Shown here: positions 38,756-56,262 of the stretch, one piece after another | How the letters are laid out: each line of letters opens with the position of its first letter | Position numbering within the stretch: position 1 is the stretch's first letter | Virus record (IMG/VR): IMGVR_UViG_3300029267_004697 | Coordinates: 1 to 59,867 of that record | Length of the DNA stretch: 59,867 bases | Reading direction: 5' to 3' (one strand) | From: a virus | The notes under the pieces: generated by a model | Databases searched by the model: none | What the model was told of the DNA's origin: nothing | Seen by the model: only the letters and a program-made list of their open reading frames with translations | Program-made: the position numbers and the translations under genes

Positions 38756-39142
38756 ATGGCTAAACAATTGAAAAACGTCGACGTGTATGCTATCCCAGAG
38801 GAACTAGATGAGATGGAGCAAATGATTTTCTTAAATGGGAAGATACCTCTTGTAGATTATGTAAGAATAGTTATTAACGATGCGGTAGCTAATCTACCTT
38901 ATGATGATTACGTGCTATTTGTTAAGTCACTGTTTCTGGCTTTGAGCAGGAACAAAGCTAAGAGACCTGAACAGTCAAAGAGAAGAATGATTGCGGATTT
39001 ACAAATGATAACAGGAATAGCTTTAAAGAAGATACAGCATAACAAAAGAAAACTTTTTCCTAAGACAGAGGGCATAACTATGGACGACCTTGTTGATTTT
39101 ACCGCAGACATAATTGACACTTTGGAGTCCTTCAATATTTAA
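38756..39142 (+). CDS. Hypothetical helical protein with LFP motif
   Basis: A 128-residue helical protein two bases after the previous stop. NKRKLFPKTEG lies near residue 101, followed by a helical tail. One of a group of small proteins here with K-L-F-P. Function unknown. Confidence 0.7.
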   Translation: MAKQLKNVDVYAIPEELDEMEQMIFLNGKIPLVDYVRIVINDAVANLPYDDYVLFVKSLFLALSRNKAKRPEQSKRRMIADLQMITGIALKKIQHNKRKLFPKTEGITMDDLVDFTADIIDTLESFNI

Positions 39143-39169
39143 ATAAGTTGTAAACAGGGGGGTACTAGA

Positions 39170-39517
39170 ATGTACAATGTAATTTCGGGAGAGGTTTTTG
39201 AATTTAAATACGACGATGTCTTCAAAATGACTATTACCCTTTTTGGTCGGCAGGGAGACAGAATACCGACAGAGTCATTGGTAGAAAAACTACTTAGCAC
39301 TTGTATGTTGTGTGAAAATGTTAAAGATAGTATCAGGGAGTTAAGCTTGCTGGACTTAGCTTATTGGCTGCACCATAATGAATTTCCTAGATGGGCGGCT
39401 GCACATGACAAAGAACTATTTCCCACAAGAGAAATTGTACGTAAAGCCTTGAAAGCCATTGTATCTGCCGAAAATGATCAGAAGTTATTCCCTCTAGAAC
39501 TCTACTTTGATGGGTAG
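39170..39517 (+). CDS. Small protein with two LFP motifs
   Basis: A 115-residue protein with DKELFPTRE in the middle and DQKLFPLELYFDG at the C-terminus. AGGGGGG precedes the ATG. The internal repeat of the motif suggests two binding sites or a duplication. Confidence 0.7.
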   Translation: MYNVISGEVFEFKYDDVFKMTITLFGRQGDRIPTESLVEKLLSTCMLCENVKDSIRELSLLDLAYWLHHNEFPRWAAAHDKELFPTREIVRKALKAIVSAENDQKLFPLELYFDG

Positions 39518-39703
39518 AAACTAGTAAAAGGTGGTACTAGTGGATTACAAAGAAATAGAAGACTCAATTTCCAAGGAAACTAACTATGGAGGGAATATAG
39601 GATGAGATCAGCATATCAAGCTTGTTATTTAGCTTTGGTATAGTTTTTGCTGTGAGTAAATACCTAGCAAACTAGTTGAAGGAAATACAAAAGGGAGGTA
39701 AAA

Positions 39704-40108
39704 ATGTCGTTTAGCTGTACGGATAAGTACCTAACTACTGATTCGAGAGAATTAGCACATATTTTATTTGAGAACTCTCTGAATAGCATGCTTACAGGTG
39801 TGAATCTAGTTCAGTCGCTGGTAAGGTTGCTGCAAGCAACAGAGAAACCAGCAAAACTAATTGAAATTATAAGATTACTAATCTCAGCAATTATTCATAA
39901 GATTAATGATCTGCAAACACATGTCTATAAGTCAGAAATGATTGAATCTGGATCCGGGTCAGGGATGGTTGCGATAAATAAGTTTTTTGTCATATCATCC
40001 TTGAGTAGTTTAGTTGAATCACTAGAATCTATGTATAGATCTTATAACTCAGAAAGAGTACTTAGTAGCGAGGGAATGCTTTTCCCGGCTAGAATAGTTA
40101 ATTACTAG
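39704..40108 (+). CDS. Small helical protein with C-terminal LFP motif
   Basis: A 134-residue helical protein ending SSEGMLFPARIVNY. Bases 39732-39856 are repeated exactly in the next gene. AGGGAGG precedes the ATG. Upstream, 39518-39703 holds only two tiny frames of doubtful value. Confidence 0.7.
   Translation: MSFSCTDKYLTTDSRELAHILFENSLNSMLTGVNLVQSLVRLLQATEKPAKLIEIIRLLISAIIHKINDLQTHVYKSEMIESGSGSGMVAINKFFVISSLSSLVESLESMYRSYNSERVLSSEGMLFPARIVNY
39732..39856 (+). repeat. 125-base perfect direct repeat, copy 1
   Basis: Identical to 40175-40299, in the same reading frame in both host genes (LTTDSRELAHILFENSL...). Flanking sequence differs at once on both sides. Confidence 0.9.
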
Positions 40109-40116
40109 GAGTAATC

Positions 40117-40713
40117 ATGCCAGTATCATTAGAAGATCTGGAGGCATACTTGGAGCAAATACCTAAGGAAAGATTAACTACTGATTCGAGAGAATTAGCA
40201 CATATTTTATTTGAGAACTCTCTGAATAGCATGCTTACAGGTGTGAATCTAGTTCAGTCGCTGGTAAGGTTGCTGCAAGCAACAGAGAAACCAGCAAAAA
40301 TGTGGTTTTACTTTAGAGGTTACCGCTACGAAGATTTACCTCTAGATGGAACAGCACTCAATTATTGTTATGAAGTACCTCATGCAATTGTAAGCAGCTT
40401 ATCTGATGAACTATTTGGGGAATCACTAGACAGTATATATTCTGGAGTAGACAACATGTCTGAGCTTGTCTCTAAAGTGATAAAGCTAAAAGAGCCTAGT
40501 AAAGTAGTTGAATTTATTAAATTAATAGCTGCCTCCCTAGCCTTTAAGCAAGACGATCTAAGAACAAACCCTACAAAGTATGTAGAGAACACTAATTTTC
40601 TACTTTTAGAGAGATTCGGCCCAGATAATATCCAGATGGTTTTACGGAATGAGGCAGATGCCCTAGTGCATATAATCGAGACATACAGCTCTGAGCGGTT
40701 AACCCACAGCTAG
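40117..40713 (+). CDS. Chimeric helical protein
   Basis: A 198-residue protein. Residues about 20-61 come from the repeat shared with the previous gene; residues 88-150 (ELFGESLDSIYSGVDNMSELV) are a diverged version of the same domain. It therefore looks like a fusion of a recent copy onto an old paralogue. An internal ATG at 40302 could be the original start. No LFP end. Confidence 0.65.
   Translation: MPVSLEDLEAYLEQIPKERLTTDSRELAHILFENSLNSMLTGVNLVQSLVRLLQATEKPAKMWFYFRGYRYEDLPLDGTALNYCYEVPHAIVSSLSDELFGESLDSIYSGVDNMSELVSKVIKLKEPSKVVEFIKLIAASLAFKQDDLRTNPTKYVENTNFLLLERFGPDNIQMVLRNEADALVHIIETYSSERLTHS
40175..40299 (+). repeat. 125-base perfect direct repeat, copy 2
   Basis: Second copy of 39732-39856, 443 bases downstream. 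Exact identity implies a very recent duplication. Confidence 0.9.
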
Positions 40714-40809
40714 AATAATTAAGGAGGAAAAATTCGGATCTACTATCTATGACCGTGAGCTGTCAGACGTATGGCCGCAAACAGCCAGGGAATACTTTGA
40801 GGAGGGGAA

Positions 40810-40920
40810 ATGAATATACTAGCTGCACAGGGTAATATCAACCTTAATGAATACCTTGACCACCCAACAGAAGACCAGCAGACCAAACTAGTAGAGGGAG
40901 AACTAAGATGCTTGAGTTAG
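40810..40920 (+). CDS. Very small hypothetical protein
   Basis: A 36-residue frame starting MNILAAQGNINLNEYLDHPT behind GAGGAGGGG, overlapping the next start. The strong binding site supports translation. No family. Confidence 0.45.
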   Translation: MNILAAQGNINLNEYLDHPTEDQQTKLVEGELRCLS

Positions 40921-41366
40921 AGCAGCAAGATAGTATAGATCTAGAGGAATTCCTAGCCTTACCCACTAGAGGTGAGCCGTTATATACCTTTTGTGACAGG
41001 CCCGCCCGACTCCTCGCACCAGTCTGCAGCTATGCTTTCGCCAATGAATCAATACAGAGACTAGAAAAGAAGCTGTTTCCAGACATTGCGGATCCAAGCC
41101 CAGCAATAAAGAGAATAAGAACACTAGCCAGGAATCTCATGCAGACAGAGTCTGGCGATAAGCTGGTCAGGAAAATAGTGCTGTTGTACGTAACCGTGCA
41201 TAAATTCAACTGGAATGTCAGCTTTACCAGAGCTACAAGCCTTATGGGACTAGTCGAATTAGAAGTTGAACTGTATAAGCTAGCAGTAGTCTGCACCTCA
41301 GAACGCAGCTCCAATAAGCTGCTGTTCCCTCTAAAACTAGCGGAAGGAGAACTAAAACTAACATGA
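40908..41366 (+). CDS. Small helical protein with two LFP motifs
   Basis: A 152-residue helical protein with EKKLFPDIAD near residue 60 and NKLLFPLKLAEGELKLT at the end. GGGAG lies upstream in the previous small frame. It overlaps the phosphoesterase start by four bases. Confidence 0.7.
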   Translation: MLELEQQDSIDLEEFLALPTRGEPLYTFCDRPARLLAPVCSYAFANESIQRLEKKLFPDIADPSPAIKRIRTLARNLMQTESGDKLVRKIVLLYVTVHKFNWNVSFTRATSLMGLVELEVELYKLAVVCTSERSSNKLLFPLKLAEGELKLT

Positions 41367-41947
41367 GAATCTACTTCACAGCCGACCTACACCTCAATCA
41401 CTGGACTACTGAGGATAGGAACATCATAAAGTACTGTTCCAGGCCATTCACTACCATAGAGGAGATGAACCAAAATCTAATCACTAACTGGAACAGCCTG
41501 GTCCAGCCGGAAGACCTAGTCTATCACCTAGGGGATTTTTGTCTCCGTACCAGCAAAGAACTGACAGCAGGGCACTGGGAATCACGGCTTAACGGCAAAA
41601 TAGTTCACATCCTAGGCAACCATGATTATAATAATAAGGTCAGAGGTCTCCAACAAGCCGTAATCAGGTTCTCCAAGCAGAAAGCACTCCTAGTCCACTA
41701 CCCACCTACAATGATAGAGGAAATACCAGACTTCTGTAATATAGTCCTCTGCGGCCATATCCACCATCATTGGAAGACCAAGTACCTAAAGGATAAGCTC
41801 CTAATCAATGTTGGTGTAGATGTCTGGGACTATAAACCTGTGAGCATAGACCAGATCCTAGCAGAGATACAGCGGACGCCTAATAATATCATTATAGATG
41901 AAACCTCTCCTAAAGCTCATACTCACACAGTTTCCATCCCAAGCTAA
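41363..41947 (+). CDS. Calcineurin-like metallophosphoesterase
   Basis: A 194-residue enzyme with the full metal-binding set: DLHLNH near the start, GDF at 55, GNHD at 83, H in LLVHYPP, and GHIHHH at 129. Such enzymes cleave phosphodiesters or phosphomonoesters in nucleotides or nucleic acid. The small size is that of YfcE/phage-type enzymes. GGAAGGAG is upstream inside the previous gene. Substrate unknown. Confidence 0.92.
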   Translation: MRIYFTADLHLNHWTTEDRNIIKYCSRPFTTIEEMNQNLITNWNSLVQPEDLVYHLGDFCLRTSKELTAGHWESRLNGKIVHILGNHDYNNKVRGLQQAVIRFSKQKALLVHYPPTMIEEIPDFCNIVLCGHIHHHWKTKYLKDKLLINVGVDVWDYKPVSIDQILAEIQRTPNNIIIDETSPKAHTHTVSIPS

Positions 41948-41953
41948 ATCTAG

Positions 41954-41990
41954 TATCTAACAGATGTTAGATAGTCTAACAATCGTTAGA
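41954..41990. repeat. Two tandem palindromes, operator-like
   Basis: TATCTAACAGATGTTAGATA is a perfect palindrome with a two-base centre; TCTAACAATCGTTAGA follows directly, with the same TCTAAC arms. Such tandem sites often bind a dimeric repressor. They may also be RNA hairpins after the phosphoesterase gene. Confidence 0.5.
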
Positions 41991-42148
41991 TAGTATGCTG
42001 AAGCTCAGGAGGTGAGTGTAAGTATAGTCCCAATATAGCTTAATTCAAGGTATAAGGAGGGTAATCACTAGTTTAAGCTACTGTAAGTGTTCATAATGCT
42101 TAAATAAATTGGGTATGAGTACAGTTGGGTGGAAGCTCCAGTTAAGCT

Positions 42149-42246
42149 AAGCTAAGTTATTAAAATAACTAGTAAAGTTAAGGAGTTAATGATAACAGGT
42201 AGTATTAGCTCTAGTGAGTGATAAGCTAAGTCATTAAAATAACTAG
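42149..42246. repeat. Pair of 24-base direct repeats in an intergenic region
   Basis: AAGCTAAGTTATTAAAATAA at 42149 recurs at 42223 with one change (C for T), both followed by CTAG. The 390 bases between 41948 and 42340 hold no gene; they are AT-rich, with many TAAG and CTAG words and these repeats. Confidence 0.6.
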
Positions 42247-42340
42247 GATAGTTTACTAGTTAAGGTACTAGTAAAGCTTAGGTATAGGATGGAGGGGAGT
42301 ATTATATCTCACTTAACTCCCTTAAACTTAAGGAGAATTT

Positions 42341-42832
42341 ATGCTACAATATTATTACACTATAACTCTGGACACTTCCCCAGACACTCTAACCATTTAC
42401 CCTAGCACTGCCGACACTTCCCCAGACACTCTAACCATTTACCCTAGCACTGCCGCCACTTACCCTAACACTCTAGCCCCTCAAGTCAATGACTCAAGCA
42501 CTCGCGCTTGCATCTCAGCAAGGACTTTATTTAACATTGACCCTCTAACTAATCAAAAATTTAGGGAGAGTGATCTTCGCCTAATCACTGAAGCTATAAC
42601 GAAGCATGGTGGCTTAGAGATGCTGGAGAGAGTTATACTATTCTGGGAAGGGTGTGGGTGGGGGCTTTATCTTAGATTCCTTTCTATGCTGAAGATGGCA
42701 GCTCACTTTGCTCTTGGACTAGCTAGTACTGACTTTACCTTAATTGATCAGGTGTTGGCATTAGCTATTAAGCTGCAGATTGAGGGGATTAATGGTAAAG
42801 ATAAACTATTTCCTCTAAGACTAGGAAGGTAA
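42341..42832 (+). CDS. Small protein with Pro/Thr repeats and C-terminal LFP motif
   Basis: A 163-residue protein. Residues 12-45 contain two copies of the unit D-T-S-P-D-T-L-T-I-Y-P-S-T-A, coded by an almost perfect direct repeat. The rest is helical and ends GKDKLFPLRLGR. AAGGAG precedes the ATG. Confidence 0.65.
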   Translation: MLQYYYTITLDTSPDTLTIYPSTADTSPDTLTIYPSTAATYPNTLAPQVNDSSTRACISARTLFNIDPLTNQKFRESDLRLITEAITKHGGLEMLERVILFWEGCGWGLYLRFLSMLKMAAHFALGLASTDFTLIDQVLALAIKLQIEGINGKDKLFPLRLGR

Positions 42833-42840
42833 AGTACTGA

Positions 42841-42898
42841 AAATACTAGAAGAGAAGAATAAACTATTCCCTAGGAGGTATTTTCTATGGTAAGAACT
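42841..42898 (+). pseudogene. Remnant of an LFP-motif gene
   Basis: One frame reads KILEEKNKLFPRRYFLW and stops but has no start codon. It looks like the severed 3' end of another gene of the LFP group. Confidence 0.4.
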
Positions 42899-42941
42899 TA
42901 TTATAATCCCCTATCTAGATTTAGCTATCAAAAACCACAGC

Positions 42942-43196
42942 TTGATATTGCGAAGGAGCGTATATCTTGATAGCCTTATTAGAAATAAACATGGACATAG
43001 CCTGATTTGGGAGTTGGGGTTAGTGGAGCTAAGCTGCCGTCGTCTGATGCTCGGGGAGACTCCACGTCGGTACTTTGGGCACACCCAAGACTATGAAAAA
43101 TACTCAAGATTACAGTCGCTTGCAGAAGATAAGCTGAAAGAGTGCATGCCTATTGAAGAGGAGAAGAAGCTATTTCCTAAAAGGAGAGTCAAATGA
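42942..43196 (+). CDS. Small LFP-motif protein, start uncertain
   Basis: A frame ending EEEKKLFPKRRVK, with at best a TTG start. A strong AGGAGG and ATG at 42887 lead into another frame (MVRTYYNPLSRFSYQ) that stops at 42970. The two halves together look like one gene broken by a frameshift near 42950. The end overlaps the next start by four bases. Confidence 0.45.
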   Translation: MILRRSVYLDSLIRNKHGHSLIWELGLVELSCRRLMLGETPRRYFGHTQDYEKYSRLQSLAEDKLKECMPIEEEKKLFPKRRVK

Positions 43197-43630
43197 AAAA
43201 GATGCTAGTGATGTTAATGCTAATAGTTGCTCCTTATACAGCTCAAGCTGCGTCTTATGATGAGCTGTGCAGTGGAGTGCTGCTCCAGCTGAATAAGTAT
43301 GGCATAGATGTTGAAAAGGTCTTGGTGGTAAATATAGCTGCTGGGAAGGTTCTAGGGATTGAGACTATCAACAAGATAAACCCGGAACTACATGAAATAC
43401 TTGCAATATCTACAATAGTAGTGGCTGCACTAGTTAAGGAAAGCGGCAGGAAAATAGACCACGTTGTGCTAGGTCCCTTGACTTTTAATGTAGAAGGAGA
43501 TGTGAGGACTTATAGGTTCACATCTTCCATGCAAGAGATATGGGTGTTAGTGGGTAAATACTACGGTGAGGGTGCCCCTCCCGATAAGGAGCTCCAGAAG
43601 ATTTGGCATCCAGTTGAAGAGGAAGACTAG
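43193..43630 (+). CDS. Exported hypothetical protein
   Basis: A 145-residue protein with a signal peptide (KKMLVMLMLIVAPYTAQAAS, cleavage likely after AQA). The mature part has one hydrophobic helix (ISTIVVAALV). It would act in the cell envelope of the infected host. AAAGGAG is upstream. Family not recognised. Confidence 0.75.
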   Translation: MKKMLVMLMLIVAPYTAQAASYDELCSGVLLQLNKYGIDVEKVLVVNIAAGKVLGIETINKINPELHEILAISTIVVAALVKESGRKIDHVVLGPLTFNVEGDVRTYRFTSSMQEIWVLVGKYYGEGAPPDKELQKIWHPVEEED

Positions 43631-43655
43631 GAGGGCTATATGCCCTCTTTTTTTT
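43631..43655 (+). terminator. Intrinsic terminator
   Basis: GAGGGC pairs with GCCCTC, followed by eight T; it ends the rightward accessory genes. Confidence 0.9.
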
Positions 43656-43753
43656 GATTAACCTATAGTACCTAATCACACTTGAGCACCTATAGTGAAT
43701 AATCCTTCTCTGTTTTCACTAAATCTCCGAGTGTGAAGGCAAAAAAAGGAACT

Positions 43754-43885
43754 AGGTATATTCGTACCGATATAGTACATTTCACTAGTGACTGGAAAAA
43801 AGTACTTGAGAAAAACTCTATATTCACTAGTAATATCACTAAGATATTAGCCTTTATCCACAAGAGGTATATTCGTACCGATATA
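43754..43885. repeat. Pair of 21-base near-palindromic direct repeats
   Basis: GGTATATTCGTACCGATATA occurs at 43755 and 43866, 111 bases apart, each preceded by A. Each copy is itself close to a palindrome around GTAC. The region from 43656 to 44719 is AT-rich and has no convincing gene besides the small RNA at 44091. Confidence 0.6.
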
Positions 43886-44090
43886 TCATATTCCACTAGT
43901 AATTTGAAAAAAAAAGTGGAGTTGTATACAATAAGTTTAGTTTACTAGTTATTACAATAGCTTACACTAGCATAATCTATGGTGTCTCGACGGTGAGCTA
44001 TGTTAAGTACCTATAATGTATAGTATATATTATGCATGACCAGCTTTGTGTATAGCAATACATTACTATAAGTGCTTATTACCTCAATGC

Positions 44091-44200
44091 AAAAAAAGAG
44101 GGTGCAGATTTGACCTCCAGTTGGGTCTCCCTCTTGCTGTGACCCCTGGGCTATCACCTCCAGGGGGCACAGCCACAGAGCTCATACAAGCTCTGTCCTT
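44091..44200 (-). ncRNA. Structured small RNA, three hairpins
   Basis: Leftward transcript from the TGGTATAAG element at 44207. It can form ACAGAGCTT...GAGCTCTGT, then GCTGTG-CCCCTGG...CCAGGGG-CACAGC, then AGAGGG...CCCTCT with seven T as terminator. The stems are long and GC-rich within an AT-rich region. No family recognised. Confidence 0.65.
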
Positions 44201-44206
44201 ACTATT

Positions 44207-44215
44207 CTTATACCA
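44207..44215 (-). promoter_or_regulatory. TGGTATAAG promoter of a small RNA
   Basis: TGGTATAAGAATAGT on the minus strand, as at 45515 and 45871. Confidence 0.6.
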
Positions 44216-44435
44216 TAAAATGTATCATACCCCGCCCCCATACCAATATGCCTAGTATCAAGCTAAAGCTATAGCATAAGCATAGATAGGTGATAGCTAG
44301 AGCATAGTGTAGTTAAGCATAGCCAAGGACTTTGACCTATAAGTTAGTGGGGGGTATAGTATATGGAAATGTGGAGTATATATTACATACCATGTAGTTC
44401 ACGATTAGCTCCTCTCCTATAGCTATATTTTTTTT

Positions 44436-44483
44436 TAGCTCCACTAGTCCCTAGCTCCACTAGTCCCTAGCTCCACTAGTCCC
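44436..44483. repeat. Three tandem 16-base repeats
   Basis: TAGCTCCACTAGTCCC repeated three times without gaps, in the convergent intergenic region. Each contains ACTAGT. Purpose unknown; protein binding site or replication slippage. Confidence 0.8.
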
Positions 44484-44719
44484 TACTAGCTCCTAAAAGT
44501 CTAAAAAAATTTTATAGTTTACTATAGCTCCACCCCTAGTAACTAGCTATAAGTAGTTGATATCTAAAGCTTTTCACTAGTATACTACTTAGTAGTAACT
44601 AGTTAAGTAGTGAATATTCCTAGAGAATATGGGACCCGTCGGTATGGATATACCAATCTCAAAAAAAATTTTGAGTTTCGTAGGTTTCAAACCCCAGCGC
44701 TTAAGTGGGCGGCGGGGGC

Positions 44720-45316
44720 TTAAAATCTGATTTTCTTGAGGATGGATTTAAAGAGGTCGCGTCTAGTCTTGTTGGTGGATTTTATGTGGGACAGTAGATT
44801 AACTATCTCATTACCGCTTTTTGTATGAGATATAGATTGCCAGAATGGTTTGTCTAGTAGCTTCATTGGTTTTATCTTGGCTGCTTTTATAGCGTCTCTT
44901 TGTACAGCATATTCTTCTACTAGTTTTCCTAGATTACCTAAGCCAGTGTAGCGGAAGAAGGGTTTATTCCTACTAATTGACATCCGGTGATAGAACGGCT
45001 TGTCTATATATCTTTGGGCATGTCCTAGTTCATGAAGCAGCATTAACTTCTTGGTTTGTGCCGGTAAGTTATGACGATAGATTATTGATACTCGATCAAA
45101 GCCTGGTGCTTTTGGAGGCATGAACCTGCGTTTGCGTGTAGGAAGTGGTGTCACCCACTGTACTGTTGCCCCTGTGCTCTCAAAACCCGCGAGACGATCA
45201 AGGTGAAGTCCAGATACTGGCTGTACTACATTCTTATAGTATGGGAAGTACTCCCTCTTGAGCTTAGCTTCTTTTTCTAGTAAGTATTTGGCTTGCTTGT
45301 ATATTCTGTCTTTCAT
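44720..45316 (-). CDS. Tagged zinc metalloprotease-like protein
   Basis: A 198-residue protein starting MKDRIYKQAKYLLEKEAK, the clearest copy of the DRIYK tag. HELGH at residues 95-99 is a zincin active site (HExxH) and EEYAVQRDA near 134 supplies a possible third ligand. It is a single gene followed by no other leftward gene. As a tagged enzyme it may be packaged and cut a host or prohead protein; that is inference. No clear ribosome binding site is seen. Confidence 0.78.
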   Translation of the reverse strand: MKDRIYKQAKYLLEKEAKLKREYFPYYKNVVQPVSGLHLDRLAGFESTGATVQWVTPLPTRKRRFMPPKAPGFDRVSIIYRHNLPAQTKKLMLLHELGHAQRYIDKPFYHRMSISRNKPFFRYTGLGNLGKLVEEYAVQRDAIKAAKIKPMKLLDKPFWQSISHTKSGNEIVNLLSHIKSTNKTRRDLFKSILKKIRF

Positions 45317-45343
45317 TAGTTTAATTATAGTATAAAACCTATA

Positions 45344-45509: not shown

Positions 45510-45514
45510 CTATT

Positions 45515-45523: not shown

Positions 45524-45533
45524 TATTTTACTA

Positions 45534-46433: not shown

Positions 46434-46449
46434 TACTATTTCCTCCAGT

Positions 46450-46965: not shown

Positions 46966-47062
46966 GAAGCAACCGAAGCTCGCAAGCAACGGCGGCCCAA
47001 GGTTCGCCAGGCCATGAACCCTGGCGTTGGCCTTGTTCTTTAGCACACCTCATGGAGATACT

Positions 47063-47332
47063 CTAACAGGAGCCGTCGCTGTAGCCATTGCCGTAGCCGT
47101 CGCTGTAGCCGTCGCCGCTGCCATCGCCGTAGCCATTGCCGTAGCCATTGCCGTAGCCATTGCCGTAGCCATTGCCGTAGCCGTAGCCATCGCCGTAGCC
47201 GTAGCCATCGCCGTAGCCATCACCGTAGTCGGAGCCATTGCCGTAGCCGCAACCGTCGTCGGAGCCATAGCCGTAGCCATCGCCGTAGCCGTAGCCATCG
47301 CCGTAGCCATCACCGTAGTCTATGCTTTCCAT
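47063..47332 (-). CDS. Gly-Tyr-Asp repeat protein
   Basis: An 89-residue protein that is almost all G-D-G-Y / G-N-G-Y units, coded by 6- and 12-base repeats. I choose this frame over the Ala-rich frames because GGGAGGTG lies at the right distance from its ATG. Such low-complexity sequence may be disordered or self-assembling. Function unknown. Confidence 0.55.
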   Translation of the reverse strand: MESIDYGDGYGDGYGYGDGYGYGSDDGCGYGNGSDYGDGYGDGYGYGDGYGYGNGYGNGYGNGYGNGYGDGSGDGYSDGYGNGYSDGSC

Positions 47333-47670
47333 ACTGGCACCTCCCCTATAGACCTTTTTGCTTGTTCTGTTGCATGAATGATTTCGATTACCTGAGTAAG
47401 AAGGATACTGTCCACCTCACAGGGGAACTTACAATTATTTGGATGTTTTACCCCCTCCATGGCTAGCTGTGAGAGGGAAGCCGCCCCCGACCAGTACCAT
47501 AGGCGGCGAGCATTCTTCAACTCTACCTCCTGGCCATCCCGGTTTGCCAGATATCCAGCGAACACCCCAGCAGAGTATGTCCTAGCAATGACGTATGGCA
47601 TACCCTCTACCTGGACATCTTTCCGCACATAGATGTTTCCATTGATGTTTACTTCTCTGCATTCACTCAT
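47320..47670 (-). CDS. Hypothetical protein
   Basis: A 116-residue protein whose first 50 residues (NINGNIYVRKD) are beta-rich, as in phage proteins with an Arc-like tail domain; the rest is helical. GGAGGAACA precedes the ATG. The end overlaps the Gly-Tyr repeat gene. Confidence 0.65.
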   Translation of the reverse strand: MSECREVNINGNIYVRKDVQVEGMPYVIARTYSAGVFAGYLANRDGQEVELKNARRLWYWSGAASLSQLAMEGVKHPNNCKFPCEVDSILLTQVIEIIHATEQAKRSIGEVPVWKA

Positions 47671-48861: not shown

Positions 48862-49245
48862 TCACTCTCCGTCACGAACGCAGCGGACGTAACCGTTACC
48901 GGACTTACTACTGCTACCCATATAGCCATCGCTGAAGTAAACGTCATACGCATAGTCGGTATTGATGGCGTTCGTGGTACCCGCCCAGTAATACGAGAAT
49001 TTCGTATCCGGAAAGAAGGCAGTATCAATCGCCGGATTGTACTGGGAATAATCCACGATTGAGACCAGCTCCGCCACAGTAGGGAGCCTCCAATCGCTAT
49101 AACCACCCAGTTCTAACCCCTTAGCATATTCATTAGCTTCGTCCCAGTTTCTCCGCTTACCATCATCCTCTTGCTGCCATACGAGACTAGTTTTGTTGTC
49201 AGTAATAGTCCCGTCATTATTATCTACAAATCGTTTTTTATCCAT
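48862..49245 (-). CDS. DUF1566 (Lcl-type, C-lectin fold) protein, short form
   Basis: A 127-residue protein made only of the DUF1566 domain: NDGTITDNKTSLVW, WRLPTVAELVSIV, YYWAGTTNAINTDYAY and NGYVRCVRDGE. Its last 110 bases align with those of the gene at 36741, identical in blocks and different at scattered sites. AAGGGGAAG precedes the ATG. It lacks the helical N-terminal part of the paralogue. Confidence 0.8.
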   Translation of the reverse strand: MDKKRFVDNNDGTITDNKTSLVWQQEDDGKRRNWDEANEYAKGLELGGYSDWRLPTVAELVSIVDYSQYNPAIDTAFFPDTKFSYYWAGTTNAINTDYAYDVYFSDGYMGSSSKSGNGYVRCVRDGE

Positions 49246-49278: not shown

Positions 49279-50238
49279 TTAACACCTATTTCCCATTATC
49301 ACCCCTTTGCCCTCACACACTGGGCAATCTTTAAGGGGTTCATTTATTCCTATTATGAGTTTTTCTAGAAATTGGTCTATGTTGTCCTGAAGGTCTTGTT
49401 GATCTTTCCCCTCAAAGGGTTTAATTGGGGTATAGCCCCGATAGTTTTCCGGGGAGTAGGTCATTTCGTAAATCTTAAGCTGTCGGTATCGTCGCGTCTT
49501 AGTTTCGGTTCTTGGTTTCTTCCTTTGCCTACCGCTACCCAATCTCTCGACTTCGTATTCCTCTGGTTTTGCTAGTTCTATTTTCTTTACAACCTCAAAA
49601 CAGAAATTATAATCGGAGGTAATTTCCGCATATTGAGGATTGATATTACTCTTAATATATTGTCTGACAATATCATACGATTGCTTTGAACTAAGCCTAG
49701 AAGGTCGGGAGGGTAAAATCAGCGATGGAAATAATATTTGATCAAGCAATTGGTGGTCTATGTCTTTTTCGGTGATTGTATTTGCTCTTTGTTCAAGCAT
49801 GATCGGATAGGCAAAACCGTTAAACTCCTGTACATTGTCAAATTCGACCATATCAACAATCTGAAAATCTATTTTCGCGGTTTTTTTCGGGGGTATATCA
49901 CTCTTAAGTTCATATAATGACCGAAGATGGGTAAACTCGGGCAACCAATCCCCACACTCATCTGTAACCTCAACACTTAGAGATTTTGGGATTTTATCCG
50001 AGGCAAGAGAGACATCCTTCAATTCATATCTAAAATTGGTAGAAGGAGGTTGCACTTCACGGGAAATTGATTTTGGTTCCTCTTTAACAAAAACCCAATC
50101 TTTATGAAAGGTAGGCATCGGACTATGACCGTCAAAAGAAAATTTCAAGAGTGGAGATTTAGACGAATATTGACTATCTGAATATTCAGACAAATAAATA
50201 CCCCTTGGCGTTTTAATCTCAATTAATTTTAATAGCAT
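49279..50238 (-). CDS. Hypothetical protein with C-terminal Cys pair
   Basis: A 319-residue protein starting MLLKLIEIKTPRG behind AAAGGGAG. A basic stretch (GRQRKKPRTETKTRR) lies around 245, and the end (DCPVCEGKGVIMGNRC) resembles half of a DnaJ-type zinc finger. The long polar middle is unlike other genes here. Function unknown. Confidence 0.7.
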   Translation of the reverse strand: MLLKLIEIKTPRGIYLSEYSDSQYSSKSPLLKFSFDGHSPMPTFHKDWVFVKEEPKSISREVQPPSTNFRYELKDVSLASDKIPKSLSVEVTDECGDWLPEFTHLRSLYELKSDIPPKKTAKIDFQIVDMVEFDNVQEFNGFAYPIMLEQRANTITEKDIDHQLLDQILFPSLILPSRPSRLSSKQSYDIVRQYIKSNINPQYAEITSDYNFCFEVVKKIELAKPEEYEVERLGSGRQRKKPRTETKTRRYRQLKIYEMTYSPENYRGYTPIKPFEGKDQQDLQDNIDQFLEKLIIGINEPLKDCPVCEGKGVIMGNRC

Positions 50239-50257
50239 TTATCTCCCTTTCTAAAGT

Positions 50258-50428
50258 TTATTCAGCAACATCTAATTCATCTTGTATTTGTTTTTTTAAT
50301 ATCAATAAATTTTCCTTGTCTCCGATATTAATAGTATCCAATCTATTCTCAGTTCCACGTTTACCAGTAACATAAATATTTATAAAATACAGTTCACCCA
50401 TTTTTGCCATAACTGGTTCAAACTTCAT
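50258..50428 (-). CDS. Small hypothetical protein (paralogue of 48217)
   Basis: A 56-residue protein starting MKFEPVMAKMGELYFIN with INIGDKENLLIL later. Related to the gene at 48217. AAGGAGGAC precedes the ATG; its start overlaps the end of the hexapeptide gene by four bases. Confidence 0.65.
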   Translation of the reverse strand: MKFEPVMAKMGELYFINIYVTGKRGTENRLDTINIGDKENLLILKKQIQDELDVAE

Positions 50429-51075
50429 TTGTCCTCCTTAATTACATATTCGTTTCTTAACCCTAGATACATTTCCAGCTGTGCTCGCAAAATCCAGTGC
50501 CAGCCGTCCCAAGCACAGATTTCCTCTTTCTCCTTCTTTGTCAGCATCTTTGGATAATCATCCCAACATTTATTCTGATCAAGAATTTCTTTTCTCCATT
50601 TTCTAAAAGGAGGCATTTCCGCCCAGTAGTTACGCCAGAATGGGAGGAATATGGTAGTAATCTTTTTTGCCGAAACATCGAAAGTATAACTAAAAATATA
50701 TCCTGCCCTGATTCCCCTTCCTGCCTCGATCCACTCTCTCGCCTCGATCCACTCTCTCGCCCTGATCGCCCCTCCCGCTTCGATTCCCCCTCCCGCTTCG
50801 ATCCCCCCTCCTGCCCAGATTCCCCCTCCCGCTCTGATCGCCTCTCCCGCCTCGATCCACCCTCCTGCCCTGATTCCCTCTTCCGCTTCGATCCACCCTC
50901 CTGCCCTGATTCCCTCTTCCGCTTCGATCCACCCTCCTGCAGTGATCCCTCCTCTTGCCTCGATCTCCTGCCCGATAATCTTACCAGTTACATAGCACCC
51001 AACTTTAAACGTAATCTTCCCATCGGAGACTACGTCTCCCTTAATCCTCGACTTACTAATGATTTTTTCGTTCAT
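50425..51075 (-). CDS. Hexapeptide-repeat protein (long paralogue)
   Basis: A 216-residue relative of the gene at 36269, with about 16 hexapeptide units (G-G-W-I-E-A, E-G-I-R-A-G) coded by 18-base repeats between the same N- and C-terminal domains. Unit number differs strongly between paralogues, which suggests expansion and contraction by slippage. The start overlaps the 21-residue leader frame. Confidence 0.78.
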   Translation of the reverse strand: MNEKIISKSRIKGDVVSDGKITFKVGCYVTGKIIGQEIEARGGITAGGWIEAEEGIRAGGWIEAEEGIRAGGWIEAGEAIRAGGGIWAGGGIEAGGGIEAGGAIRAREWIEAREWIEAGRGIRAGYIFSYTFDVSAKKITTIFLPFWRNYWAEMPPFRKWRKEILDQNKCWDDYPKMLTKKEKEEICAWDGWHWILRAQLEMYLGLRNEYVIKEDK

Positions 51076-51137
51076 AAATCCTCCTTTGTTCCTACCCTTC
51101 CATCAGCTAACTTAATCTGCGTTCCAAGTTTCATCAT
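51072..51137 (-). CDS. 21-residue leader peptide ORF, coupled to next gene
   Basis: Same peptide as at 36207 (MMKLGTQIKLADGRVG...), same ATGA overlap with the following hexapeptide gene. About 85 bases are shared between the two loci. Confidence 0.5.
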   Translation of the reverse strand: MMKLGTQIKLADGRVGTKEDL

Positions 51138-51142
51138 CCCCC

Positions 51143-51157
51143 CTTTCTTCCAATAAG
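51143..51157 (-). repeat. Shared accessory-gene leader sequence
   Basis: CTTATTGGAAGAAAG on the minus strand, followed by a G-run and the leader peptide frame. Confidence 0.6.
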
Positions 51158-51166
51158 AGCAATTAT

Positions 51167-51640
51167 TTATACATTTCCCCATGCCTCGGTTAATCTTTTA
51201 TTGTGATCTTCTCTTGCTTGCGACTCCGCTTTGACCTTCTCTGCATTCTCTCTAGCCGTTTCTTCAATCTTGTTTTCTTTTTTTTCTATTAATTCAGCTA
51301 AAAACAGAATGATTTTAACTACCCAAGGACCATCTTTTATCCATTTACCGTTTCTCCAAACTTCTATTAATTCCCCGTTCTTGGGTTTGGGCATGGCGTT
51401 TCCACTGGTGGTCGAACTTTGACAGCCAGCTTGGATTTCTGTGTGTGGATCGGAGCAAATGAAAATCGAACAAGAATTATCTACATGGTGATAGTCAACC
51501 AATAAAATCCCAGCCTTGAAATAACAAAGCCTAACTGCCCGGTATGCCGATCCAGAGCAATTTGTTAATCCCAAACTACTTAATGAATGAATAAAACCGC
51601 TCATTTTGCTTCTGCTACTTAATAGCGTATTTGATTCCAT
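51167..51640 (-). CDS. Hypothetical protein
   Basis: A 157-residue protein with a Ser-rich N-terminal part, several Cys residues, one hydrophobic helix (PWVVKIILFLAELI) and a charged coiled C-terminus. No family recognised. The start is not certain: no strong binding site. Confidence 0.6.
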   Translation of the reverse strand: MESNTLLSSRSKMSGFIHSLSSLGLTNCSGSAYRAVRLCYFKAGILLVDYHHVDNSCSIFICSDPHTEIQAGCQSSTTSGNAMPKPKNGELIEVWRNGKWIKDGPWVVKIILFLAELIEKKENKIEETARENAEKVKAESQAREDHNKRLTEAWGNV

Positions 51641-51676
51641 TCTTCTTCCGTTGGCCCTTGCTGGTCTGACATTGGT

Positions 51677-51931
51677 TTATTCTTCCCCTTTCCACGGTAA
51701 TTGTGTAGAATCACTCCCATTTCGAAATAATCCTCCAGGCGGCCGCTCGTTTTCATCGTGTAATTTATGATCTAACTCAATGGCGGCTGGCAAAACCTCG
51801 TCAGATAAATACTGAATAACCTCGGCCACCGCAAAAGCATGACTATGTCTCCTTGCGGTAAAGCTCCGCTCGAATTTCACATCTAAAATCTCTGCAAAAC
51901 TGCCTCTGATGTCAATACTTATCTCTCCCAT
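51677..51931 (-). CDS. Small hypothetical protein
   Basis: An 84-residue protein starting MGEISIDIRGSFAEILD behind GGGGAGAAAC. Mixed fold, acidic end. No family recognised. Confidence 0.65.
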   Translation of the reverse strand: MGEISIDIRGSFAEILDVKFERSFTARRHSHAFAVAEVIQYLSDEVLPAAIELDHKLHDENERPPGGLFRNGSDSTQLPWKGEE

Positions 51932-51984
51932 GTTTCTCCCCTTTCCCTTTTTTCTTCGTCAATCACCGGTTCATACTCCTTCAT
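51919..51984 (-). CDS. Possible tiny ORF
   Basis: A 21-residue charged frame (MKEYEPVIDEEKRERGETW...) whose start overlaps the previous stop (ATGA) and whose end overlaps the next start. It may only couple translation. Confidence 0.35.
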   Translation of the reverse strand: MKEYEPVIDEEKRERGETWER

Positions 51985-52112
51985 TTCCCCTCCAATTTCG
52001 GTAATCGTTTCTCAACTAAACCTAACTCCATCCCCAGGTTTACAATGTCATTTTGTAAACCTGTCTGCCACCCCACCTGAATAACATTCCCATTGCAATC
52101 CAAAATCCTCAT
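51981..52112 (-). CDS. Small hypothetical protein
   Basis: A 43-residue frame starting MRILDCNGNVIQVGWQTGL directly after the previous stop. It has no strong binding site of its own and may depend on coupling. Confidence 0.45.
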   Translation of the reverse strand: MRILDCNGNVIQVGWQTGLQNDIVNLGMELGLVEKRLPKLEGK

Positions 52113-52346
52113 CTATTGTCTGACTAGATATTCTATCGTTCCATTATCCCAAAGTATGGCCCTGACAAATTTCGAAATATGGATGTTTTCAAGTTTATTC
52201 ATCATACTAAATAGCATATTTGTTTTCTGTTCTCCATACTTACTGATCAGGTAGCTATGTCTTTCTTCATATGGAATATTACGGATGGATTCTATCATTT
52301 CAATGAATTTTGATTGAGAAATTTCTGTCAATGTTTTTTTAGGCAT
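52113..52346 (-). CDS. Small hypothetical protein
   Basis: A 77-residue protein. I prefer the start at 52346 (MPKKTLTEISQ) behind AGGAGGG to the upstream ATG. Helical, no recognised family. Confidence 0.65.
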   Translation of the reverse strand: MPKKTLTEISQSKFIEMIESIRNIPYEERHSYLISKYGEQKTNMLFSMMNKLENIHISKFVRAILWDNGTIEYLVRQ

Positions 52347-52422
52347 TAACCCTCCTGTTGTTATCATCTATCTTATAAGGTAATCTCAACACAGATGTTT
52401 CGGATTAAACCAGATTTCCAAG

Positions 52423-52659
52423 CTAAACATTTAAATTCTCCCAAGTTTTTCTTTCTTTTTCGTTCATGAGGTTGATATCTCTATTGTTCTCGTCCCACAC
52501 TTCCCCCATAACGTCAACTAGATACTTCTTTAGGTTGTCTAGGGCTTCGCTTTTGGTTTGCCCCCATTGGGTGCATTGCCCGGCAGGACCAGTTGACCCA
52601 CAACTAGCATAATATTTCCCGGTCATTGAGTGCTTTCTCACCACTACGTTTTTAATCAT
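52423..52659 (-). CDS. HicB-like small protein
   Basis: A 78-residue protein with the HicB-like pattern: a beta start (KYYASCGSTGPAGQCTQW), then GQTKSEALDNLKKYLVDVM. HicB proteins are antitoxins or RNase H-fold regulators. No HicA toxin gene is seen beside it, so it may be a stand-alone relative. Confidence 0.6.
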   Translation of the reverse strand: MIKNVVVRKHSMTGKYYASCGSTGPAGQCTQWGQTKSEALDNLKKYLVDVMGEVWDENNRDINLMNEKERKTWENLNV

Positions 52660-52722
52660 TTTTCTACCCCTATTTTTCTAGGCACTATTGACCATATAAC
52701 TTATATTATCTACAATCACCCC

Positions 52723-53112
52723 TTAGGAAAAGAGGTCACTAAATTCCTGATCTGAATCAGCTATCTCCTTTTCTCTTAATTTTACCTCAATCTTAAAAAA
52801 CTTATCAAAATATAAGCAAGCAATCCCATAAGCAGAGAAGCCCGCCTCTCCAGATTCCATTGGTATAATTCTATTTTCCGAGTTTTCAATATATCCTACA
52901 GCTTTACTACTAAATAAATAATTATCGAAAGAATAATATTCGTGTGGTTCTACGCCATATCGCACAATAATGGTTGGATGCTTTGACCTACACAAGTAAA
53001 GATCAATGTTCTTATGTGTTTTTCCATCTGTAGTTATAACGGCGGTTCCCTGAAATTCACAAAATGGACAATCTTGTGCATTAGGGAAGTTTGGTGTTTC
53101 TTTCTTTTCCAT
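52723..53112 (-). CDS. Hypothetical protein with Cys pair
   Basis: A 129-residue protein starting MEKKETPNFPNAQDCPFCEF behind GGGAGGG. The CPFC pair and a later Cys-His (CRSKH) may bind zinc. Function unknown. Confidence 0.7.
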   Translation of the reverse strand: MEKKETPNFPNAQDCPFCEFQGTAVITTDGKTHKNIDLYLCRSKHPTIIVRYGVEPHEYYSFDNYLFSSKAVGYIENSENRIIPMESGEAGFSAYGIACLYFDKFFKIEVKLREKEIADSDQEFSDLFS

Positions 53113-53184
53113 TTTACCCTCCCGTTCTTGGCACAATTCCCTAACCCTCGATACCGCCCCTAGTTTCTAGGGGCGGTAAGATAG

Positions 53185-53346
53185 TTAGTGAAGCCGTTCT
53201 ACCATCTTTATAAATGTTGGGTAGTCCCACTCACCAACGTTTCCCCTCGGCCCGACCCAGTCGTGGTTGTAATACACCTCCCAAGCATGTACCCACGCCT
53301 GAACTTTCAGCCGAGCAAACACTAACATTTTTTGCCACCTGTTCAT
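53185..53346 (-). CDS. Small hypothetical protein
   Basis: A 53-residue Trp-rich protein starting MNRWQKMLVFARLKVQAW behind AAAGGAGGGG. It is followed by a 12-pair inverted repeat (TACCGCCCCTAG/CTAGGGGCGGTA at 53152-53178) that may stop or protect the transcript. Confidence 0.6.
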   Translation of the reverse strand: MNRWQKMLVFARLKVQAWVHAWEVYYNHDWVGPRGNVGEWDYPTFIKMVERLH

Positions 53347-53396
53347 ATCCCCTCCTTTCTAATAACGATTTTAAGTTTTTACTTTGTATTTAAACA

Positions 53397-53405
53397 CTTA
53401 TACCA
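53397..53405 (-). promoter_or_regulatory. TGGTATAAG promoter
   Basis: TGGTATAAG on the minus strand, 51 bases upstream of the gene at 53185. Confidence 0.6.
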
Positions 53406-53461
53406 TAATTACTATTAACTAGAATAAAAAAAAGAGGCGGTTAAGGCCCCTTTTTATGTAA

Positions 53462-53749
53462 CTAGTCTATTCTAGGTGGAAATAATAATTGGCTTTGCTC
53501 AGGAGGTGCATCTACTATTTCTAAATCATTCTCGGTTAAAAAGTTACGTTTAGACAGCCAATTCTCAACCAAATTAATTTCTAATACATCAACCCTGCCT
53601 CTTTTACTTTTAGTAATTCTGGCTAGTATTTGGGTAAGGCCACTATTATTATTCATCAGTAGAATATCCAACCAGTCTTTTCCTTTTTTGACTAGATACA
53701 GCTCACTTTCGCCTAGACTTAGAGGTAACTTTATTAATTTTGTTGTCAT
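53462..53749 (-). CDS. Small protein with C-terminal LFP motif
   Basis: A 95-residue protein, beta-rich, ending PPEQSQLLFPPRID. The Q-L-L-F in this copy looks most like a sliding-clamp binding motif. It overlaps the next upstream gene by 47 bases. Confidence 0.65.
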   Translation of the reverse strand: MTTKLIKLPLSLGESELYLVKKGKDWLDILLMNNNSGLTQILARITKSKRGRVDVLEINLVENWLSKRNFLTENDLEIVDAPPEQSQLLFPPRID

Positions 53750-54287
53750 GAGGAGCAGCCTCCTGTAGTTTTAACCTCCTTGTCATACTTTTTGATGCTG
53801 CTTTATCTGAAAAGTCCATCCTTACTGAATTATCATGGCTGTAGTCCCGCTCGCATCGGAAATCAAATTCTATATGGCTGTCACTAAAAACATAGATATG
53901 TACCTTAGATTTTTCCTCATCATCTAGTACCTTCTCTTGACATAGTGGACAAACAACTGGAACGGTGGTGGAATCTATAATTTTAGTTTCTTTAAGCTGA
54001 TCGGTGTCTTCATTTTTATGTTCTCTTACCTTTATTTTTAATCTAGTGTTTGGTGAGATTAAACCAAAGTGATCATCAGCATTATTCCAGTCCTCAAATA
54101 GTTGATGCTTAGAAACTTTAAGGTTGAACTCTACAAAATCAATATCTTTAGGCTCTCCACCTACTCTGGTATAATCAAACCCACCGTCAATATAACAAGC
54201 ACCACATTCACAGCTTCTACAGTCATGCCTAGCTCTAGAGAAAACTGTGTAACCACACTTTTTGCATCTTACTCCGTAAAGTTTCAT
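53703..54287 (-). CDS. Zinc-binding hypothetical protein
   Basis: A 194-residue protein. CKKCG and CRSCECGAC at the start form a zinc ribbon; CPLC lies near residue 115 and the C-terminus is basic. It overlaps the next gene's stop by four bases. Role unknown. Confidence 0.7.
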   Translation of the reverse strand: MKLYGVRCKKCGYTVFSRARHDCRSCECGACYIDGGFDYTRVGGEPKDIDFVEFNLKVSKHQLFEDWNNADDHFGLISPNTRLKIKVREHKNEDTDQLKETKIIDSTTVPVVCPLCQEKVLDDEEKSKVHIYVFSDSHIEFDFRCERDYSHDNSVRMDFSDKAASKSMTRRLKLQEAAPHDNKINKVTSKSRRK

Positions 54288-54661
54288 TTATTATCCTTTT
54301 CTATTTTTTTGTCAACTAGCTTGGAAAGCTCCCATTTATCATTATAACGAAGGTACAACCCTGGCTTGAACGACTGTGTATCTAGAACTATTTGGAGCGC
54401 TATTTCTGTTTCCCGGTGTGTTTGTTCTAACTCACTAACGGGCAAGTCATTGTCATCTTCTTCTATCGGTTCTCCGCAGTGAGGACAAACTTTTCTCTCG
54501 AAGCCAAGTATCTTAGCTAAATCAGACAGCACGTCACTATTTCCATAAGGTCTTTTGGGGTCTATACACGGGGCTCCAAATTCACAGTCATACCAGCTGA
54601 CTACAGCATTTGTTAAAAGATCTATATGTTCTTTCGTTAGCTGAAACGTTTCTCCTAGCAT
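54284..54661 (-). CDS. Hypothetical protein with Cys pair
   Basis: A 125-residue protein with CPHCGEPIEEDD in the middle, between two helical parts. It belongs to the leftward run of small genes. No family recognised. Confidence 0.7.
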   Translation of the reverse strand: MLGETFQLTKEHIDLLTNAVVSWYDCEFGAPCIDPKRPYGNSDVLSDLAKILGFERKVCPHCGEPIEEDDNDLPVSELEQTHRETEIALQIVLDTQSFKPGLYLRYNDKWELSKLVDKKIEKDNK

Positions 54662-54712
54662 TTGTTTATCCTTTCTACGTTAAGTTCTTCTACCGCCTAC
54701 TTTAACTAGAAA

Positions 54713-54808
54713 CTATATCCGCAAGTATTTTAGCGTATTTATTTCCCATTCCCAAACAGACTCCTCTTCTGCATCAGCAGACCCGTCACTAATTACTTTT
54801 ACCCCCAT
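54713..54808 (-). CDS. Possible very small protein
   Basis: A 31-residue acidic frame (MGVKVISDGSADAEEESVW...) overlapping the end of the previous gene. No clear binding site beyond a GGGGG run. Confidence 0.4.
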   Translation of the reverse strand: MGVKVISDGSADAEEESVWEWEINTLKYLRI

Positions 54809-54968
54809 GAATTATATAAGCAATATTATCATCGATAAAACCACTAGCAAAGGCTTCCAAGACGGCCTTCTCAAGTGTATCACCTAGGCCGAACCAACCA
54901 TCTATGGGTTCTAACGATTCGGCGGCAAACCATTTATGCCCAGGTTTTAGTTTAACTAGGCTCTTCAT
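54789..54968 (-). CDS. Small hypothetical protein
   Basis: A 59-residue protein starting MKSLVKLKPGHKWFAAESLE. Its start overlaps the end of the preceding gene. Compact mixed fold, no family. Confidence 0.55.
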   Translation of the reverse strand: MKSLVKLKPGHKWFAAESLEPIDGWFGLGDTLEKAVLEAFASGFIDDNIAYIIHGGKSN

Positions 54969-55143
54969 TTTCTATCTCTTCCCAAGCTAACAAGTTTCTT
55001 CTTCGTTCCAAGAAGTCTTTTAGTTTAGTATAGTGTTTACCGATTGACCATTTAATTATAGGAGGGGCTGCGGTTATAATACCATCATCATTCACGTCTA
55101 CCCCGCCACAAAAATAGTTAGTATTAATCCAGACTGATTTCAT
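54952..55143 (-). CDS. Small hypothetical protein
   Basis: A 63-residue protein starting MKSVWINTNYFCGGVDVND. Polar, with a basic-acidic C-terminus. No family recognised. Confidence 0.6.
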   Translation of the reverse strand: MKSVWINTNYFCGGVDVNDDGIITAAPPIIKWSIGKHYTKLKDFLERRRNLLAWEEIENEEPS

Positions 55144-55152
55144 TGCCTCTAA

Positions 55153-55596
55153 CTATTTCTTCTTTCTAGTTACTTTTTTTTTCACTACTGGAATTTCTTT
55201 TCCAGAAATGCTCCTAGGCTCATCGTAAATTACTAACATCCTCTCATGCATGTCTTTTGGAGGGTGTAAGTCCCAGCTAGTTCTATAACGAATAGCTTGG
55301 TAGATATCACAGGCTATTTGTGCTTCACTGGGAATAGAGTCTTCATAGATTCCATGATAAGCGTTTTCTGGCAGCTCAGGAAATAGTTTCTGCTTTAAAG
55401 CCTTTAATAGATAATCATTATAATGATGATATTTTAATTCACGCTGTTTCTTGTAGGGGATTATCCGTTCTATCATATCGAATTGACTTAGACACATTCT
55501 AAAATAAAATTCTAAAGCAAGTTTAGTTACTTCGGCTTGTTCTTTATTCAGCTCCAGTAACCACTTAGGTTCTTCTACATCTTTTTTCTCAGGCAT
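55153..55596 (-). CDS. Hypothetical helical protein with LFP motif
   Basis: A 147-residue helical protein with LKQKLFPELPENAY near residue 69 and a very basic end (VVKKKVTRKKK). The upstream binding site is AAAGGAG. Part of the LFP group. Confidence 0.65.
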   Translation of the reverse strand: MPEKKDVEEPKWLLELNKEQAEVTKLALEFYFRMCLSQFDMIERIIPYKKQRELKYHHYNDYLLKALKQKLFPELPENAYHGIYEDSIPSEAQIACDIYQAIRYRTSWDLHPPKDMHERMLVIYDEPRSISGKEIPVVKKKVTRKKK

Positions 55597-55646
55597 AAAC
55601 TCCTTTGATTCGTGAGCATGTTTCTTTTCTTCCTAACGCACTTTAG

Positions 55647-55964
55647 TCATATTCTTATTACAGGGAACAGCATCTTAACCGGTTTTTCTGATGGAAACAG
55701 CCTTTCTTTTGCTGTTTCCATATCAACTTGAATTAAAGCTACAACAGGCCAGACATAGTCATTTTTTTCTAGACGTACTTGTGTATTAAGCGGGTTGCTT
55801 GTCGTAGAACGCCTTATCGAACTAATTCGATCGATTGACCCAACATATTTGTCCATTGCTGTGGACCAATAATACATAGTCAAGTTTTTCCATCTGTGTA
55901 ACATTCTAGGAGGTGGCTTAATAATTGCCACCAATTCACCAACCTTTAAGATATTAGCTTCCAT
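55647..55964 (-). CDS. Small protein with two LFP motifs (paralogue of 55954)
   Basis: A 105-residue protein with KERLFPSEKP and a C-terminal KMLFPVIRI. The rest (W..AMDKYVGSIDRI...YVWPVVALIQVD) aligns with the next gene and resembles small barrel domains of the MIB/HERC2 type. The start overlaps the next gene. Confidence 0.68.
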   Translation of the reverse strand: MEANILKVGELVAIIKPPPRMLHRWKNLTMYYWSTAMDKYVGSIDRISSIRRSTTSNPLNTQVRLEKNDYVWPVVALIQVDMETAKERLFPSEKPVKMLFPVIRI

Positions 55965-56262
55965 CTTCTTTGCCCCCTTTTATCACTTTTAAAGGAAATA
56001 ACATCTTAGTACTAGATCTATTGTCTATTTTGATTAAAGCACATGGTGGCCAGTTAAATCCTATATCTTCTAAGCCAACAATATTATCAACGCAAGCATC
56101 ATGTGTTTTATCTAGGTATCTCACCACACACACTTTACCAACATGTCTGTCCATTCCCGGCGCCCATGAATCCTCGGCTTCAGCTTCCCACTGGAGCAAT
56201 CTAGCTTCTGAAGGTTTTCTGATCAAAACTAAATCACCACGTTTTAAACAGCTATTTTCCAT
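55954..56262 (-). CDS. Small barrel-like protein with C-terminal LFP motif
   Basis: A 102-residue protein starting MENSCLKRGDLVLIRKPSE behind TAGGAG; the longer frame upstream lacks a site. It has SWAPGMDRHVGKVCVV and ends TKMLFPLKVIKGG. Paralogue of 55647. Confidence 0.68.
   Translation of the reverse strand: MENSCLKRGDLVLIRKPSEARLLQWEAEAEDSWAPGMDRHVGKVCVVRYLDKTHDACVDNIVGLEDIGFNWPPCALIKIDNRSSTKMLFPLKVIKGGKEDGS

Follow-up and report, generated by a model that had tools for sequence, protein, structure and literature searches.

A Leu-Phe-Pro motif recurs near the C termini of accessory proteins with several different bodies in a phage coding for a fused RNA polymerase

Our analysis reveals that eight genes in two accessory clusters of a phage genome carry the tripeptide Leu-Phe-Pro (LFP) close to the C-terminal end of their products. 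We interpret this tail as a short linear motif through which its carriers would dock on a single shared partner, and which owes its spread in part to gene duplication; we give this reading, in which binding is inferred, a probability of about 0.58. A common partner had been put forward in the original prediction, made from the DNA letters alone; it is still the best-supported reading, given the enrichment, a signal at the protein level, at least two folds, and a tandem copy, with partner binding as its conjectural part.

Phage, contigs, and gene set

The stretch analyzed (the window) is one virus record of 59,867 bp, IMGVR_UViG_3300029267_004697. A sister contig, IMGVR_UViG_3300029258_003188, is near-identical across window positions 1–44,658 and holds ~17 kb more upstream, and a third, IMGVR_UViG_3300017989_000171, reaches further still. 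The phage codes for a fused beta-beta' RNA polymerase (2026 amino acids), a family-A DNA polymerase, a sigma-like factor, and a homologue of the Gabija anti-defense protein Gad1, together with primase-, helicase-, and RecA-like proteins recognized by inspection of the sequence. A lineage of phages with multi-subunit RNA polymerases is already established (PMC7481178). We defined 110 window genes by a simple ORF rule and manual curation, not by Prodigal. A scan of bacterial genomes with Gad1 for the host of the phage gave no match.

The polymerase gene lies about 0.8–7 kb upstream of the window start (L008:10063–16143 in the sister contig). Its product is ~30–34% identical to counterparts in Vibrio phage D69 and Salmonella phage Arash, and relatives of it are encoded by 301 IMG/VR stretches. 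Beside this gene, L008:5700–10033 (minus strand) encodes a PRTRC-like ThiF/E1 protein (TIGR03736, E 2e-13, below the curated cut-off), a JAB protein, and a retron-type reverse transcriptase (PADLOC RT_II-A, E 8.5e-36).

Several other genes of the window were recorded in passing. The Gad1 homologue (49279–50238, minus strand; PF25705, E 2.4e-79) has an internal LFP. The large terminase gene (3687–5720) reads as split by an intein-like insert (CCSEDTEVTLSNG...VANGVITHN). Short in-frame repeats with 12-, 15-, and 18-bp periods occur in the genes at 32647–33528, 34965–35606, 37560–38363, 47027–47377, and 50425–51075, whose products include one that resembles pentapeptide-repeat proteins and two SVRDS/SVWNS repeat proteins that are paralogues of each other. 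Similar ends resembling the Lcl C-terminal domain PF07603 (...YVRCVRDG) are found at 36726–37445 and 48862–49245 on opposite strands, the Pfam match being shown for the former only.

Carrier genes and their tails

The features are as follows; "stop" marks the end of the protein.

38756–39142, plus strand: 128-residue protein; internal LFP at 39053–39061 (KRKLFPKTEG)
39170–39517, plus strand: 115-residue protein; internal LFP at 39416–39424 (KELFPTRE); tail LFP at 39485–39493 (QKLFPLELYFDG stop; KLFPLELYFDG stop)
39704–40108, plus strand: 134-residue protein, helical bundle as predicted by AlphaFold2; tail LFP at 40079–40087 (GMLFPARIVNY stop)
40117–40713, plus strand: 198-residue paralogue of 39704; tail without LFP
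40908–41366, plus strand: 152-residue protein; internal LFP in the body at 41073–41081; tail LFP at 41322–41330 (RSSNKLLFPLKLAEGELKLT stop; LLFPLKLAEGELKLT stop)
42341–42832, plus strand: 163-residue protein, its first part a 42-bp tandem repeat; tail LFP at 42806–42814 (KDKLFPLRLGR stop)
42838–42890, plus strand: non-coding remnant with LFP at 42864–42872 (EEKNKLFPRRYFLW; NKLFPRRYFLW stop), immediately before the ribosome-binding site that follows
42887–43196, plus strand: gene broken by an insertion; tail LFP intact at 43170–43178 (EEEKKLFPKRRVK stop; KLFPKRRVK stop)
53462–53749, minus strand: 95-residue protein; tail LFP at 53485–53477 (SQLLFPPRID stop)
55153–55596, minus strand: 147-residue protein; internal LFP only, at 55386–55378 (KQKLFPELPEN)
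55647–55964, minus strand: 105-residue SH3-like paralogue; two tail LFPs, at 55700–55692 and 55670–55662 (RLFPSEKPVKMLFPVIRI stop)
55954–56262, minus strand: 102-residue SH3/Mib-repeat-like protein, ATG at 56262; tail LFP at 56001–55993 (RSSTKMLFPLKVIKGGKEDGS stop; MLFPLKVIKGGKEDGS stop)

All motifs first listed at 39170, 39704, 40908, 42341, 42942, 53462, 55647, and 55954 are in frame at those genes, and the internal copies reported for 38756, 39170, 40908, and 55153 were found as well. The second copy in 55647, previously placed among the internal ones, is present but belongs to the tail, where LFP stands twice in tandem. The remnant described near 42841 proved to be the non-coding copy at 42864–42872. 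Across the nine tails, the consensus is [KMLR]-L-F-P-x, followed by Lys or Arg in 6/9 and by a hydrophobic residue in 6/9, with Pro directly after Leu-Phe invariant; the Lys or Met said to precede the tripeptide do occur, but so do Leu and Arg.

The TTG ORF at 42942 is the 3' part of a split gene. Its intact counterpart in the sister contig is an 84-residue ORF with a start equivalent to 42887, and the window has 55 extra bp at about 42967–43021 that divide it. The DNA of the remnant at 42864 resembles the tail and ribosome-binding site of this next gene, so it appears to be the end of a gene that has since decayed. The internal LFP of 38756 may be a former tail, because the last 17 residues of that protein are similar to part of 38427, the gene before it. 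The internal copy of 40908 lines up with Leu-Phe in the bodies of its paralogues and is therefore probably not a tail motif, and that of 55153 is possibly part of the body.

LFP tails exceed the expectation from composition

The two accessory clusters, at 38.8–43.2 kb (plus strand) and 53.5–56.4 kb (minus strand), lie in opposite orientation and comprise 16 genes together. LFP is the top over-represented tripeptide in these genes, with 13 occurrences compared with 0.41 in shuffles (Poisson 1e-15). The nine copies in eight genes that fall within 14 residues of the C terminus compare with an expectation of 0.25 over the 110 window genes. LFP is also the most enriched tripeptide in the last 25 residues of these 110 genes (9 versus 0.28; 2.5e-11, or about 2e-7 after correction for 8000 tripeptides). 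The distance from LFP to the end is 4–12 residues, and 14 for the upstream copy in 55647.

The loci of polymerase-sharing phages, with genes called by the same crude ORF rule as in the window and with some loci possibly overlapping, have an LFP tail in 4 of 2839 genes, with 154 LFP tripeptides in 844,155 residues. Compared with these, the proportion of tailed genes in the window (8/110) is significantly higher (Fisher 1.3e-9, or 3.9e-7 when only six body types are counted). No LFP tail was found in the nine larger relatives taken alone or in the remaining sequence of the phage genome covered by contigs. These data run against the refuting condition set beforehand, a C-terminal motif frequency no higher than composition predicts. 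A lone LFP tail in relative L046 was judged to be chance, and OR844998 and OR846602, first taken as relatives, were dropped from the comparison as bacterial contigs with separate rpoB and rpoC.

The tetranucleotide CTAG is in excess in the LFP clusters, at 2.9 (38000–43300) and 2.4 (52700–56400) times expectation; elsewhere in the window, the ratio is 1.5–1.9.

The tails occur on two different predicted folds

In the AlphaFold2 model of 39704 (mean pLDDT 76), helices form a bundle accompanied by a small beta hairpin; a fold search with it returned generic bundle matches only. The model of 55954 has an SH3-like fold (mean pLDDT 64, with a core mostly at 70–83), although four of the five models were poor. 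Its best Foldseek match was the Mib-repeat of Mind bomb 1 (PDB entry 4tse; E 0.019, probability 1.00), with a VIA Z of 7.6 (below the 8 needed for a decisive match) and an rmsd of 2.5 over 69 residues. The Mib-repeat/SH3-like domain of Mind bomb 1 may share the predicted body fold of 55954 and 55647, but the phage proteins have a single domain plus the LFP tail, and the sequence likeness is weak.

In both models, the tail (residues 121–134 of 39704 and 89–102 of 55954) has a pLDDT below 50, in alignments of only 2–3 sequences. This is suggestive of LFP tails as disordered extensions on two folds, although the low values could reflect the shallow alignments. LFP recurs, above chance, on at least two different predicted folds.

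Duplication accounts for some of the carriers

The statement that the bodies differ holds for about six body types, whereas at least two groups are diverged paralogues with inherited tails. When the bodies were compared with LFP masked, 55647/55954 and 39704/40117 emerged as clear paralogues, and 39704/40908 and 38427/38756 gave weaker matches. In the alignment of 39704, 40117, and 40908, of which 40908 is a probable diverged relative of 39704, the residues SER..S ahead of the tail align as well. We detected no relation of the bodies of 39170, 42341, 42942, and 53462 to other carriers. Because some tails share ancestry, the independent cases appear to number about six. Scans of PHROGs, Pfam, PDB sequences, phage records, IMG/VR, and GTDB turned up no homologues of the LFP proteins apart from those in the near-identical contigs. 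In profile searches of 38–49 polymerase-sharing records, the SH3-like pair had one weak match (E 5.5e-4), whereas no match was obtained with the helical family.

These relationships raise the alternative that the clusters are merely a zone of repeated duplication and recombination, in which the LFP ends would be inherited 3' modules with no single partner. The start of 40117 holds a 125-bp exact copy of 39732–39856 in 39704, 40117 and 40908 both align with 39704, 55647 and 55954 are 33% identical, a duplicated stretch is common to 38427 and 38756, and the tail and ribosome-binding site of 42942 have a look-alike in the remnant at 42864. LFP is nevertheless invariant while the bodies are at about 20–30% identity or unrecognizable and synonymous sites are saturated, which argues for selection on the tripeptide, and the helical bodies show no sign of homology to the SH3-like ones. 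Of the paralogues, 55647/55954 and 39704/40908 retain LFP, and 40117 lacks it. We consider ancestry alone an unlikely explanation, if a serious one.

A general handling signal fits the motif poorly

The tail could instead be a general handling signal, such as a degron, a chaperone site, or a virion-packaging tag, a reading that we regard as improbable. DnaK favors a hydrophobic core between Lys or Arg residues, and the LFP core with its Lys/Arg flanks fits this preference. Nevertheless, a generic chaperone site would not be this invariant, and the variable distance to the end leaves the motif with no fixed C-terminal position. Packaging tags common to several phage proteins are known from the internal proteins of T4, whose capsid targeting sequence is likewise one short peptide on several otherwise different proteins. 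That sequence, however, is N-terminal and is cut off by the prohead protease, whereas LFP is C-terminal and its carriers are not encoded in the virion gene block, where a separate N-terminal motif, DRIYKxA, is found. Streptococcus mutans SsbA carries a C-terminal ClpXP tag, LPF (PMC5143411), made of the same three residues near the C terminus; it differs from the LFP motif in its order, L-P-F, and in being strictly terminal. Literature on an "LFP motif" yielded unrelated uses only, plus one apparent misprint of LPF.

The motif [DS]RIYKxA is itself found near the N terminus of five proteins, mostly in the virion block.

2493–2720, plus strand: [DS]RIYKxA protein
6682–7074, plus strand: [DS]RIYKxA protein
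11020–11310, plus strand: [DS]RIYKxA protein
23995–25065, plus strand: [DS]RIYKxA protein
44720–45316, minus strand: [DS]RIYKxA protein

It is absent from 11 polymerase-sharing relatives and could be a capsid-targeting or maturation signal.

The tails lack the defining residue of sliding-clamp motifs

Binding to the sliding clamp (DnaN), including that of the host, had been proposed for the tails. The bacterial clamp-binding pentapeptide, QL(S/D)LF (PMC9690074), is likewise short, frequently C-terminal, and built around Leu-Phe, and it is shared by unrelated proteins that bind one hub; the Leu-Phe core is present in 9/9 tails, within apparently flexible extensions. Given this pentapeptide, Gln is expected three residues before the leucine of Leu-Phe, where it occurs in 0/9 tails. 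The Pro that invariably follows Leu-Phe here has no place in this pentapeptide, and the tails typically have a basic residue two positions later. The resemblance noted for QLLF in 53462 does not hold, as the spacing is off by one and the string Q-S-Q-L-L-F has no Gln at the required position; QSQLLF might be a hexapeptide variant, and the looser pattern QxxLxF fits 53462 only. Furthermore, a search for PF00712 in 20 phage records (this phage and 19 relatives; the records are incomplete) found no clamp gene. Together, these results make clamp binding, which could still involve a host DnaN, very unlikely.

The signal resides in the protein

The LFP codons resemble one another no more than random draws from codon usage (likeness 0.768 versus 0.764, with 38% of draws as high), and TTYCC is distributed 14:4:4 over the three frames of the cluster genes. 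Because the codons match the codon-usage null and the bias is in frame, the LFP signal resides in the protein. Moreover, the tails of 55954 and 40908 agree (RSSTKMLFPLKV and RSSNKLLFPLKL, respectively), with RSS[NT]K[LM]LFPLK[LV] in common and differing bodies. As the serines in this shared tail come from different codon families, the agreement points to selection or convergence at the protein level.

A DNA- or RNA-level element at gene ends that incidentally reads LFP, for instance TTYCCT pairing with the next Shine-Dalgarno sequence, is accordingly hardly credible. Several junctions do have TTYCCT just before an AGGAGG-like site, and one LFP copy is non-coding; however, internal copies exist, and no gene lies close downstream of the copy at 53485. 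With the codon and frame tests, a DNA repeat or regulatory element was rejected. Chance or composition, favored by nothing except the post-hoc choice of motif, can be dismissed for practical purposes because the excess survives both the correction for 8000 tripeptides and the control with relatives.

A proposed docking tail for accessory proteins

Under the docking reading that we prefer, the tail, roughly [K/M/L/R]-L-F-P-x-[K/R]-[hydrophobic], would stand on flexible extensions of lineage-specific accessory proteins, and its exposed Leu-Phe-Pro would insert into a hydrophobic groove of one partner, recruiting proteins with different bodies to the same place. Some of the present motifs would have arisen when carrier genes were duplicated (39704/40908; 55647/55954), and others when different bodies gained the tail. 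The likeliest partner is either a protein of the host or one specific to this phage lineage, rather than a component of the shared replication and transcription core, because the LFP tail is nearly absent from phages with a related RNA polymerase.

More tentatively, as a possibility that we consider less likely than not, the C-terminal LFP may be a phage-specific addressing code: like a zip code, it would direct fast-evolving accessory proteins of unrelated structure to a single hub, either machinery of the host or a phage structure restricted to the lineage, and new genes would plug in by acquiring the tail. If the tails bind one partner, LFP would be a tag with which orphan phage genes could be searched for more members of a host-takeover module, and a short tail peptide would be a bait for identifying the hub. 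It would also mean that phages can re-equip their accessory proteins by a shared linear motif and not by a shared fold.
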